A DNA stretch of 64,000 nucleotides, taken from the NCBI RefSeq assembly GCF_000702665.1, contig NZ_JNJA01000006.1:62001-126000 (forward strand), in the 5' to 3' direction. Position 1 is the stretch's first letter. Every line of letters starts with the position of its first letter. Below the pieces are notes generated by a model that was given only the letters and a program-made list of their open reading frames with translations, was not told the origin of the DNA and did not search any database. The position numbers were made by a program, and so were the translations under genes. The stretch comes from Solidesulfovibrio alcoholivorans DSM 5433. Its GTDB lineage: Bacteria; Desulfobacterota; Desulfovibrionia; Desulfovibrionales; Desulfovibrionaceae. Below are positions 34,440-37,770 of the stretch, in pieces.

Positions 34440-34622
34440 GGTCGGTCGGGCCTTTGCCGGTCGCGGCGGGTCGCCTCCCGCCGCGAACGCGGCCGGCGGC
34501 ATGCGGGCGCAAGGTGGCCCAGGGCGGCGGGGCTTGTCAATGCCATGGGGGGCGCGAGGGCGCGGGCAAAATGCCGTGATTGCGGGGGGAAGGCGAAAGT
34601 GACCTTTTTTTGAAGATTCCGC

Positions 34623-34656
34623 TTTACAAATGTGGCGGAACGATTATTTCTAGAAT
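34623..34656 (+). promoter_or_regulatory. Possible sigma-70 promoter for the htpX leader
   Basis: TTTACA at 34623-34628 with TATTTC 16 bases later (34645-34650). A TAGAAT at 34651-34656 is a better -10 but at an unfavourable spacing. The local drop in GC supports a promoter here, in the gap between the divergent membrane-protein gene and the first RNA unit. Weak evidence. Confidence 0.35.
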
Positions 34657-34721
34657 CAACGGCAACCTCATAAGAGGTGAAACCCGAGCAGGAGGGGAAC
34701 GCCGCGACGGAGGCCATCTCC

Positions 34722-34745
34722 CATACCCGGCGAAGCGAGTCGCCC
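34722..34745 (+). repeat. Leader repeat block A, copy 1
   Basis: 24-base block containing the hairpin GGCGA-AGCGAG-TCGCC. Copies at 34943-34966 (one or two differences) and 35146-35169 (loop changed to GAAGAG, stem intact). Confidence 0.8.
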
Positions 34746-34786
34746 CGGAAAATTGGCGGAAAACGACAAAAGTCGTAAGCCAACAA

Positions 34787-34809
34787 GGCGAGAGGACTTC
34801 CCCGATCGC
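34787..34809 (+). repeat. Leader repeat block B, copy 1
   Basis: 23-base block differing by one base from 35200-35222. Its AGGCGAG (34786-34792) is complementary to the left arm of the terminator at 35540-35546, a possible long-range antiterminator pairing. Confidence 0.7.
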
Positions 34810-34942
34810 CAGAGGGACGGATCAGAACGGTGCAGGCCTGCGGGCAGGCACGAAACGTCGAACATCTTGGGTGAGAGGCACTGGTTTTTCCAACGCGAAA
34901 GGCAACCCGAGCCGGAGGTCAGGCCGATGGGCTACGAACCAT

Positions 34943-34966
34943 CATATCCGGCGAAGCGAGTCGCCC
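34943..34966 (+). repeat. Leader repeat block A, copy 2
   Basis: Second copy of the 24-base hairpin block, preceded at 34891-34918 by a further conserved stretch that recurs at 35093-35120. Confidence 0.8.
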
Positions 34967-35145
34967 TGAAGTGACGGCCGAAAGCGGCCGTAAGCGCGGG
35001 GGCCCTTCCACCCCCGCCGGGAAGAGGCGCCCCCGGACGCAAGCGTCCGGGATGAAAAGCGCAAACCCACGGAACAGGGAACCTGGACTGAACAACGCGA
35101 AAGGTCATTCAAGCCGGAGGACGCAGCCAACGGGCAGTGAACTTC

Positions 35146-35169
35146 CATATCCGGCGAGAAGAGTCGCCC
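35146..35169 (+). repeat. Leader repeat block A, copy 3
   Basis: Third copy. The loop differs but the 5-bp stem is unchanged, as expected if structure rather than sequence is selected. Confidence 0.78.
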
Positions 35170-35199
35170 TGATACAGACGGCTGCCTGAGGGCCGTAAC

Positions 35200-35222
35200 G
35201 GCGAAAGGACTTCCCCGATCGC
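35200..35222 (+). repeat. Leader repeat block B, copy 2
   Basis: Matches 34787-34809 with one substitution; follows the third variable hairpin directly. Confidence 0.7.
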
Positions 35223-35538
35223 GGGAGAAGAGGCCGCGAAAGCGCCAAGACGGCGCAAGGCCACTTCGGAAAGGACAAGGATCAGGATTCCGGAAACTTC
35301 GGAAAGTACAACGTGCCGGAAACGGCGCAAAGAAGATAGCAGCAAGTTCCTTCCCGGCGAGATGTCTCGCCGCGCAACGCGGAACCGGAGGTTCTCTCCG
35401 GAACCCGCTCGGCGAAGGCAACCACGCCTTCGCCGGCGACAGGGCCCGGACCCGGTTGCAACGACCGGAAACGTCCCAAGGCCGTAATGGAAGGGTAACG
35501 GCAACAAGGTAACGCAACGCGCAACATGACCGATACGA

Positions 35539-35576
35539 CCTCGCCTGGCCCGACCGAGGACCGGGCGAGGTTTTTT
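35539..35576 (+). terminator. Intrinsic terminator at the end of the htpX leader
   Basis: 10-bp GC-rich stem (35539-35548 with 35561-35570, one G-T pair) followed by six T. The htpX ribosome site (CGGAGG) is at 35593-35598, so only about 16 bases separate the T-run from it. No promoter fits in between, which points to transcription of htpX by read-through past this terminator, unless a promoter lies inside the leader. Confidence 0.85.
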
Positions 35577-35610
35577 GTATTCCCAAGAGACACGGAGGAC
35601 CACACGCATC

Positions 35611-36462
35611 ATGAGCAGCCAGATCAAGACAGCCCTGCTCCTCGGACTGTTGACCGCGCTCATCCTCGTCGTCGGCCAGGCCATGGGCGGCCGGCAAGGC
35701 CTCGTCATCGCCTTTTTCATGGCCATGGTCATGAACCTCGGCAGCTACTGGTTTTCGGACAAGATCGTGCTGTCCATGTACGGCGCGCGGGAACTCTCCC
35801 CGGCCGACGCCCCGGGCCTGCACGCCATGGTCGAGGAACTGGCGCACAATGCCGGCATTCCCAAGCCCCGCGTCATGATCGTGCCCCAGGAGGCCCCCAA
35901 CGCCTTCGCCACGGGCCGCAACCCCGAACACGGCGTGGTCTGCGTGACCGACGGCATCATGCGCCTGCTCTCGCCCGAGGAACTGCGCGGCGTGCTCGCC
36001 CATGAGCTCGGCCACATCAAAAACCGCGACATCCTCGTCCAGTCCATCGCCGCCGTGCTCGGCGGGGCCGTGGTCATGATGGCCAACATGCTGCAATGGG
36101 GGGCGATTTTCGGCATGGGCCGGGGTGACGACGAGGAAGGGGGGCACGGGCTGTTAAGCGGCCTGCTCATGGCCATCCTCGCGCCCATCGCGGCATCGCT
36201 GATCCAGATGGCCATCTCGCGCTCGCGGGAATACCTGGCCGACGCCACGGGCGCGCGCATCTCCGGCACGCCCCTGGCCCTGGCAGGCGCCCTCGGCAAG
36301 CTCGAGACCTACGCCCAGCGCATCCCCATGAACGCCAATCCGGCCACGGAGAACATGTTCATCGTCAATCCCTTCGCCGGCATGTCCATGGCGTCGCTCT
36401 TCTCCACCCATCCGCCCACCGAGGAACGCATCCGCCGCCTGCGCGAAATGGCCGGGCGGTAG
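35611..36462 (+). CDS. htpX: Membrane zinc metalloprotease HtpX
   Basis: 283 residues, M48B peptidase that degrades damaged membrane proteins. Two N-terminal helices ([18 protein letters not shown] and [17 protein letters not shown]) are followed by the zinc site [10 protein letters not shown] (His131, Glu132, His135). A further hydrophobic segment and the third ligand region [11 protein letters not shown] come next. The C-terminus has the usual [16 protein letters not shown]. The start at 35611 has CGGAGG at 12-base spacing. In other bacteria htpX is induced by envelope stress. Here it is preceded by the long structured leader and terminator, implying RNA-level control that I do not know from other htpX genes. 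Confidence 0.97.
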
Positions 36463-36547: not shown

Positions 36548-36736
36548 GGGTGCAGGTGAAGTCCGCCAGCCGGCAAGACCGGTAAGCGGTTGAAGCCGAG
36601 CACGTCTGTTGCCCATGTCCGATGGGCGGAATATGCTTTATATTTTATGTGGTTGCGGATGGTGCGAAACCGCATTCCAGGCGCGAAGAATGCTTCACGA
36701 TTTGGTTCGGAGGGCGTGAGGAAAGTGAAAAATAAA

Positions 36737-36766
36737 TTGACAAATAAATATGTATATAATTATATT
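36737..36766 (+). promoter_or_regulatory. Sigma-70 promoter of the 36850-39082 operon
   Basis: Consensus TTGACA at 36737-36742 and TATATT at 36761-36766 with an 18-base spacer, in AT-rich DNA that stands out from this GC-rich genome. A start near 36773 gives a leader of about 77 bases to the first gene. Confidence 0.7.
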
Positions 36767-36849
36767 TTAGTCGAGTATATGTACCGAGCTCTTGGCCGGG
36801 GCATTTCGCTTACCGGTTCAAAAGGGAAGTCGCATATTGGGAGGCCATC

Positions 36850-37770
36850 ATGGACAGCTTCAGGAAGTGGGTGGCTGTGGTGAGCTTTTTGGGTGGCTTA
36901 ATGTGGGTTTTGTTAGAATATTCCGGGATCTTGAGTTCAATATTCTCTTCGGATGTTCTCAATCATATACTTGTGGTGCGGAATAATGCGGGCAATATTG
37001 CAAAGGTAGAAATACATACCCCAGCATACCAGGAACCCGGGGTACAGGAAGTAGCTGCCAATGCAAGCGACATTCAAAATAAGGATATTGCCCCTGTTGT
37101 TCAGGATTCAGGGGGTCGCAAGAAAAATATACCCGTACACCCTAAGGAACAGGTTATGAAACCCCCTGCGCCTTCCAAGGTGTTTGGGGACAAGCAGAAT
37201 AAAGCCGATCGGCAATCCCGGTTGAAAGGGAATGCGCAAAAGGCTCAGTCAGGGCGGACAAGCAAGATCGCCGCTGGGCAAGTGCCGACGCCCCGTGTCG
37301 ATATATCTCGGCGAACGGAGGATATCGTGCCAGTGCCGATGCGGCGCCCATTGATTGCCCCTGCGCCGCAACAACTGGCCACTCCTGCGCCGCAACCGCT
37401 GCCCATCCCTGCGCCGCGAGTCGCGGTCTCCCACGTGTCGAAGGAATTACGGCAGTTCCTGCAGGAGACGGCGTTGCCAGGCGAGCCTGCGGGAGGGCTA
37501 TCTCCATCGCAACAGTACCAGGCCTTCCGGTATTTCGAGGAGGGCTTGCCGTTGTTTAAGCGCGCCGTCCTGGACTACAAGCACTATGTGTCAGGACCAT
37601 CTGGCTATGCCAGTGCGACCGCTGTGGAGGCGAGGAAATCCATGCGGCAGTTCCTCGCTCTGTACGACAAACATGCACCCTACCTTAGCAGCTATGCCAG
37701 CAGCAACGATCTCGTTGAGCAGTATGCAGTATATATCAAAGTCGGCAGGCGCATCGTTGAAAGTGAATAG
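36850..37770 (+). CDS. Membrane-anchored Pro-rich protein, unknown function
   Basis: 306 residues. An N-terminal signal-anchor (AVVSFLGGLMWVLLEYSGIL) is followed by a long, basic and Pro/Gln-rich linker to about residue 205, including alanine-proline repeats (APAPQQLATPAPQPLPIPAP). A C-terminal helical domain of about 100 residues follows (SPSQQYQAFRYFEEGLPLF). The linker could span the periplasm. GGGAGG precedes the start. It is the first gene of a three-gene operon with a lipoprotein protease and a lipoprotein. GC content is lower than the surroundings. No family recognised. Confidence 0.78.
   Translation: MDSFRKWVAVVSFLGGLMWVLLEYSGILSSIFSSDVLNHILVVRNNAGNIAKVEIHTPAYQEPGVQEVAANASDIQNKDIAPVVQDSGGRKKNIPVHPKEQVMKPPAPSKVFGDKQNKADRQSRLKGNAQKAQSGRTSKIAAGQVPTPRVDISRRTEDIVPVPMRRPLIAPAPQQLATPAPQPLPIPAPRVAVSHVSKELRQFLQETALPGEPAGGLSPSQQYQAFRYFEEGLPLFKRAVLDYKHYVSGPSGYASATAVEARKSMRQFLALYDKHAPYLSSYASSNDLVEQYAVYIKVGRRIVESE

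Follow-up and report, generated by a model that had tools for sequence, protein, structure and literature searches.

A kilobase-scale, multi-module RNA upstream of htpX in Solidesulfovibrio alcoholivorans and its probable membership in an apparently undescribed RNA family of the Desulfovibrionaceae

The 64-kb stretch of the Solidesulfovibrio alcoholivorans genome analysed here (the window) carries, directly upstream of the protease gene htpX, a predicted long structured RNA that quite probably belongs to a family of free-standing RNAs, as opposed to being a dedicated htpX leader. What looked like a leader is thereby re-read as an RNA gene: the element would be a giant paralogue, with several modules, in a family of free-standing structured RNAs of the Desulfovibrionaceae that appears to be undescribed. 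Sequence and conservation suggest that its transcription starts at a promoter of its own and mostly stops at its own intrinsic terminator, and the long form would have arisen by module duplication. The known repertoire gains a family that was detected in about one in three of the 288 Desulfovibrionaceae genomes searched, usually in one or two copies and distinct from 6S RNA. If one lineage has indeed enlarged a short RNA to kilobase size by repeating the RNA's own module, one origin of giant bacterial RNAs becomes directly testable.

The long RNA and its place ahead of htpX

The long RNA is predicted to occupy positions 34657–35576 of the plus strand, from the putative start to the end of the U-tract, with its ends placed by the promoter and terminator sequences; a 15-sequence alignment and the fold support it. 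These limits contain no convincing gene. Folded as RNA, the segment 34640–35580 reaches −399.6 kcal/mol, compared with −351.0 ± 7.8 for 20 dinucleotide shuffles (z = −6.28), none of which folded equally well. The plus strand is A-rich, with an AT skew of 0.31–0.47 over the long RNA, and its poverty in T accounts for the long open reading frames (ORFs) seen on the antisense strand. Protein coding by that strand was considered and rejected, as the ORFs look compositional. The lowest-E match of an antisense ORF, to the copy at L034, has 42% protein identity over 130 aa where the DNA is 74% identical, and shorter ORF pieces give higher identities over stretches of 15–35 aa, as expected for a conserved RNA.

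The whole window has a single match in Rfam, a tRNA, and a covariance-model search of 34500–35700 against Rfam 15 gave nothing at E ≤ 10. None of the 24 loci with relatives that were compared with Rfam reached a gathering score on the RNAs. A known riboswitch class was rejected for want of any Rfam match. 6S RNA (RF00013) was also rejected, since the 6S RNA of this genome lies at a separate locus (G000:C14:5838-6019). The preliminary description of this DNA had proposed a gene-free, structured plus-strand RNA of about 920 bases, without a convincing match by eye to four riboswitch classes and with an intrinsic terminator at its end, and on these points it stands; it had also pointed to the regions upstream of htpX in related genomes as the place to look for relatives and covariation, and both were found there, as set out below.

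A promoter-like site precedes the RNA at 34622–34650 (plus strand), consisting of CTTTACA as the −35 element, a 16-nt spacer and TATTTC as the −10 element. All 18 of 18 long copies keep CTTTACA and a TA after 16 nt. The RNA opens with a hairpin, ACCUC-AUAA-GAGGU (34665–34678), of which the pairing CCUC/GAGG in the htpX-linked copies is replaced by GCCC/GGGC in an orphan copy at locus L044 (15-sequence alignment). The hairpin is followed by three copies of a module that can be written as GGAGG, 15–40 nt, CCAUA, 1–4 nt and a hairpin GGCGA-ANNGAG-UCGCC, with variants; the hairpin has five base pairs and an ANNGAG loop. Module 1, the 5′ module, lies at 34685–34745, module 2 at 34908–34966 and module 3 at 35110–35169. 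The repetition is visible at the DNA level as 47-nt direct repeats (D1) at 34702, 34923 and 35126, the outer copies being 64% and 77% identical to the middle one. Pairing of GGAGG with a CUCC of the same module was considered as a further helix and rejected, as it is present in module 1 of the window and absent, by eye, from other modules and from class A copies.

Downstream of the modules is a conserved 3′ domain (35347–35485), made up of a GGCGAG..CUCGCC hairpin, a CCGGAGGUUCUCUCCGG hairpin, a long variable hairpin and a GACCGG-type hairpin. In an alignment of 12 sequences (A1), 93.5% of the cells are paired, two-sided changes occur in 23 cells compared with 9.7 in shuffled alignments, and 11 of 43 pairs show a two-sided change; 0 and 2 of 500 shuffles, respectively, score as high, all these figures referring to a structure derived from the same alignment. 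The RNA ends in an intrinsic terminator at 35538–35576, a 13-pair stem with a bulge (35538–35571) followed by T6 (35571–35576). Seven of its 13 pairs have two-sided changes among 17 sequences (alignment A5), a count equalled in none of 500 shuffles.

The M48 peptidase gene htpX (35611–36462, plus strand; Peptidase_M48, PF01435, 5.9e-37) starts 34 nt beyond the terminator, with a GGAGG ribosome site at 35594–35598. This gap is too small to accommodate a separate promoter, so read-through of the terminator is the likely route to htpX. A simple consensus scan also reported no htpX promoter, which is weak evidence, since the scan missed both the upstream promoter-like site and the terminator of the long RNA itself. 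On balance, then, htpX is probably transcribed by read-through, an arrangement in which a basal amount of the protease would be coupled to production of the RNA.

The arrangement is conserved. A BLASTN search with the long RNA in 59 genomes, its own included, found matches in 14 of 14 genomes of the genus and in 0 of 45 outside it. Every one of the 14 has an htpX-linked copy. All 13 genomes of the genus besides this one have htpX directly downstream of one copy of the RNA, and across the 14 the htpX start falls 21–35 nt past the terminator stretch. The usual layout is a 5′ module, one to three more modules about 200 nt apart, the 3′ domain and the terminator, giving two to four modules in the htpX-linked copies of the genus. 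There are three in the window, L031 and L033, four in L032, L035 and L036, and two in L034, L037–L043 and the orphan L044. The three genomes seen from a second genus, g53, have a shorter version at the same place directly upstream of htpX, about 400 nt long and with one module. They bring the htpX-linked copies, all upstream of and co-directional with the gene, to 17. With almost no U-tract, the g53 terminators may fail to stop transcription, and read-through would then be easier there. Inspection of 30 htpX loci found the RNA at five, three of them in the genus (own included) and two in g53; for two of the 30 (L064, L072) the upstream stretch is wrong, as the contigs end there.

Short relatives across the family

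Relatives of the module also exist as short, free-standing RNAs. Their parts follow one another in the order promoter, 5′ hairpin, CGGAGGG, GAAAUA, CAUA, a hairpin P2 with the loop ANNGAG, a closing stem P3 and U residues; P3 encloses a small hairpin (P5). Measured from GGAGG, 49 copies are 127–180 nt long, and counting a presumed 50 nt ahead of GGAGG, the whole RNA would be roughly 180–230 nt.

The stems are well supported by comparison. Across P2, P3 and P5, 92.3% of the cells are paired and two-sided changes occur in 25 cells, compared with 5.3 in shuffled alignments (0 of 500 as high); seven pairs have a two-sided change compared with 4.0 when shuffled, a number reached by 22 of 500 shuffles. 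P3 occurs as GUGCGCC/GGCGCAC, GAGAUUCGCC/GGCGAAUCUC, ACUUGCC/GGCAAGU and other variants.

These sets were assembled from matches to a covariance model of the core module, R1. There were 75 R1 matches in 58 loci, of which 60 were kept as short copies; the 15 omitted were modules of long copies (L126, L128, L136) or matches that were weak or partial, and among the latter are probably some real second copies (L134, L147, L154, L172). Leaving out 11 more that had no terminator found, belonged to the long class B or were doubtful (e.g. L164, L175) gave the 49 full-length short RNAs, and 35 of these formed the alignment (A4) behind a model of the whole short RNA, R2.

Among 288 genomes of the family, R1 matched 100 at E ≤ 0.01, spread over 25 of 44 genera; the matches in about three of these genomes may be due to chance. 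R2 matched 98 of the same 288 genomes at E ≤ 0.001, and these fall into 13 of the 44 genera. Matched genomes mostly carry one or two R2 matches; among 35 genomes listed for the genus g5, 34 have two and one has one. Among 395 genomes of the phylum, R2 matched seven at E ≤ 0.01, six of them within the family, and the sole match outside it is weak (22.7 bits, E 0.003). The exact module pattern was found in 16 stretches among 84,980 species genomes, 12 of them in records labelled Desulfovibrionaceae or one of its genera. The 12 include several short RNAs, with tandem copies among them (Salidesulfovibrio brasiliensis L080; L079/L090; L084). The other four stretches were judged by eye to be chance matches; they come from Clostridia (L085), Thiocapsa (L086), Hyphomicrobiaceae (L088) and Leptolyngbyaceae (L089).

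A viral collection gave no match to the exact pattern, and a viral origin was rejected for that reason. The same result bears on the reading that the RNA has spread without a function, as a repeat array or mobile element. Internal duplication and the extra copies in some genomes (L044, L126, L128) are what such spread would produce, but the helices carry compensatory changes, the promoter-like site is conserved, most matched genomes have only one or two matches and the viral contigs lack the exact pattern, and we regard functionless spread as highly improbable.

Kinship between the long and short forms

R1 recognises the three window modules with 65.9, 58.4 and 55.2 bits, in their order along the RNA, scores that are no independent test of kinship since the window sequence was in its training set. 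R2 was trained on the 35 short RNAs and no long copy. Run unfiltered on 34500–35700, it scored 16.2 bits at 34690–34754, 19.0 bits at 34913–35008 and 19.6 bits at 35115–35267. These are the three modules, each matched on the plus strand with E < 1e-4; the next best score was 1.6 bits. The module of the window RNA is thus recognised by a model built from other members only, with modest scores of 16–20 bits.

In a search of 23 loci (217,852 bases), the best R2 matches fall on RNAs of this kind, the window modules have E-values of 0.0016–0.013, and a few weak matches lie elsewhere; the top scores were 26.9 bits for L129, which is medium-length and free-standing, and 25.5 bits for L034, the best of the htpX-linked copies. 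Among the matches listed by the whole-genome R2 searches, the window's own genome is represented by its short copy only, and the htpX-linked copies by that of G010 only (E 9.2e-4). The tool itself describes the E-values of its models as rough, and the filters are stricter in large searches. The R2 scores, a promoter of the same form and the same succession of GGAGG, CCAUA and hairpin together argue that the long and the short RNAs are kin.

The S. alcoholivorans genome itself has a short free-standing copy, at G000:C2:480613-480672 (L121, 2114–2173), with promoter-like and terminator sequences. By eye, it is flanked by a sensor-kinase-like gene on one side and, on the other, by an EAL/GGDEF gene that converges on it. 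Long copies may stand alone as well. The orphan copy in Solidesulfovibrio aerotolerans (G005; L044, 3829–4613) has kept two modules, the promoter and the terminator, and the gene behind it is, by eye, convergent only.

Besides L044, the long copies unlinked to htpX in S. aerotolerans (G005) and in G007 are those at L126 and L128 (from about 1335–1443 on); these copies have the promoter-like CTTTACA. At L126, a sub-threshold match to isrF (23.3 of 40 bits) lies behind the modules.

Function and neighbouring genes

The preliminary description had presented the RNA as a leader whose terminal attenuator controls htpX. Part of this idea survives, in that read-through into htpX is likely given the small gap; its main point, that the RNA serves primarily as an htpX attenuator, finds no support, as relatives of the module stand free at unrelated loci, the genes that follow them point either way, and the orphan long copy does without htpX. 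Both the internal repeats and the free-standing relatives had been missed.

In a cis-regulatory family, the gene that follows would be expected to lie on the same strand. It does so behind 27 of 60 short copies and lies on the opposite strand behind 33, as counted on home-made gene calls with doubtful copies included; another gene-call rule gives 24 and 36. With more than half of the 60 lacking a co-directional gene behind them, the family departs from riboswitch and attenuator leaders, which the window RNA resembles as a structured RNA that ends in an intrinsic terminator before a ribosome site, and from which it also differs in matching no class and in having no antiterminator seen to be maintained. 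One candidate antiterminator pairing, checked by eye on the alignments, fails in L035 and L036, where the terminator arms have changed together and the last upstream hairpin has no matching change.

In its strict form, the leader reading holds that the RNA senses a signal and that the terminator is a regulated attenuator of htpX. In its favour, all 14 genus genomes and the three of g53 have the terminator followed by htpX, with no room for a promoter in the gap. Relatives that stand alone, an orphan that is complete with no target gene on its own strand, an antiterminator pairing that is not maintained by eye and the missing Rfam riboswitch match count against it, and we consider it unlikely. 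Since the short copies and L044 stand alone, the htpX arrangement is better seen as one setting of an RNA that works alone elsewhere. The constancy of the htpX linkage in the 14 genus genomes and the three of g53 suggests that there is some cis function too.

UpsM of Rhodobacter, an sRNA derived from a 5′ UTR by premature termination, likewise has its terminator directly upstream of a gene that is reached by read-through. The window RNA resembles such sRNAs in this respect, and its family differs from them in that the other members usually have no such gene.

The preferred reading is of an RNA gene. A conserved module repeated inside one molecule suggests multivalent binding, in which each module would bind one copy of the same putative partner. 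The long form might accordingly be a multivalent trans-acting scaffold or sponge, a tentative proposal in which CsrA is one candidate partner. Taken further, and somewhat more speculatively, this would be a new bacterial RNA class that works by valency, in which the binding module of an RNA of about 200 nt, mostly present once or twice in a genome, has been multiplied into a scaffold of 0.7–1.1 kb and wired by read-through of the terminator to htpX, a membrane quality-control protease whose level would then track synthesis of the RNA.

One concrete form of the RNA-gene explanation is a CsrA-titrating sponge of the CsrB/RsmZ kind, with the GGAGG of the module as the CsrA site. Like CsrB and RsmZ, the family described here consists of paralogous RNAs that stand free and contain repeated units and GGA motifs. 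CsrA is encoded in 54 of the 59 family genomes searched, the number of modules varies, and genes of cyclic di-GMP turnover adjoin short copies in some genera. The 49 short RNAs with 50 nt upstream hold 275 GGA compared with 242.8 ± 10.8 when shuffled, and 82 ANGGA compared with 67.3 ± 6.3; the conserved GGAGG stands in an ANGGA context in 39 of the 49. But this enrichment is slight and the sites are few, at 1.67 ANGGA per short RNA, which sets the family apart from CsrB and RsmZ. The window RNA shows no clear excess, with 33 GGA compared with 29.4 ± 4.2 and nine ANGGA compared with 7.4 ± 2.8, and its GGA are unpaired at a fraction of 0.42 against an average of 0.41; the highest GGA excess among 15 long copies is that of L035 (43 compared with 33.9 ± 4.0). 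Nor are CCAUA and the loop of the hairpin known to belong to a CsrA site. A CsrA sponge in this specific sense seems quite improbable.

Other large structured RNAs are known in bacteria. GOLLD, ROOL and OLE are large, ornate RNAs that form homo-oligomers, according to the accessible text of PMC12286853. The window RNA resembles them, as far as that text describes them, in being a large structured bacterial RNA and differs in having no Rfam match, in being built from tandem copies of a module shared with short RNAs, and in belonging to an RNA family that the present searches place in a single bacterial family. No description of either the long or the short RNA was found in the accessible text of the open-licence literature searched, PMC11124144 included, and the word “Desulfovibrio” has no occurrence in the accessible text of the genome surveys PMC8632094, PMC11109978 and PMC6429828. 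The RNA family thus appears to be undescribed.

Several observations concern the genes beside the RNAs. Neighbours of the cyclic di-GMP type were noted by eye at three short copies, EAL/GGDEF beside L121, HD-GYP-like beside L174 and GGDEF-like beside L148; none is general. A protein of 76–109 aa with a DLI.DPF-like end motif is encoded upstream of the short RNA at L148, L151, L153, L158, L143 and L178, and the L148 representative has no Pfam match. In genus g40 (L142, L172), the short RNA lies just upstream of a gene for a small RRM protein (PF00076, 3e-21 for L172, the one tested), which is a possible partner of the RNA there.

One member of the genus has a second htpX (G008:C1:3603978-3604829), 71% identical to that of the window, at which BLASTN detected no long RNA. 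In other genera (L050, L051, L052), a small heat-shock-like gene, of Hsp20 type by eye, precedes htpX in place of the RNA. Behind htpX in the window, at 36600–37250, the GC content falls from about 0.68 to 0.45 around a 306-aa protein with no Pfam match, and this stretch is perhaps recently acquired DNA.
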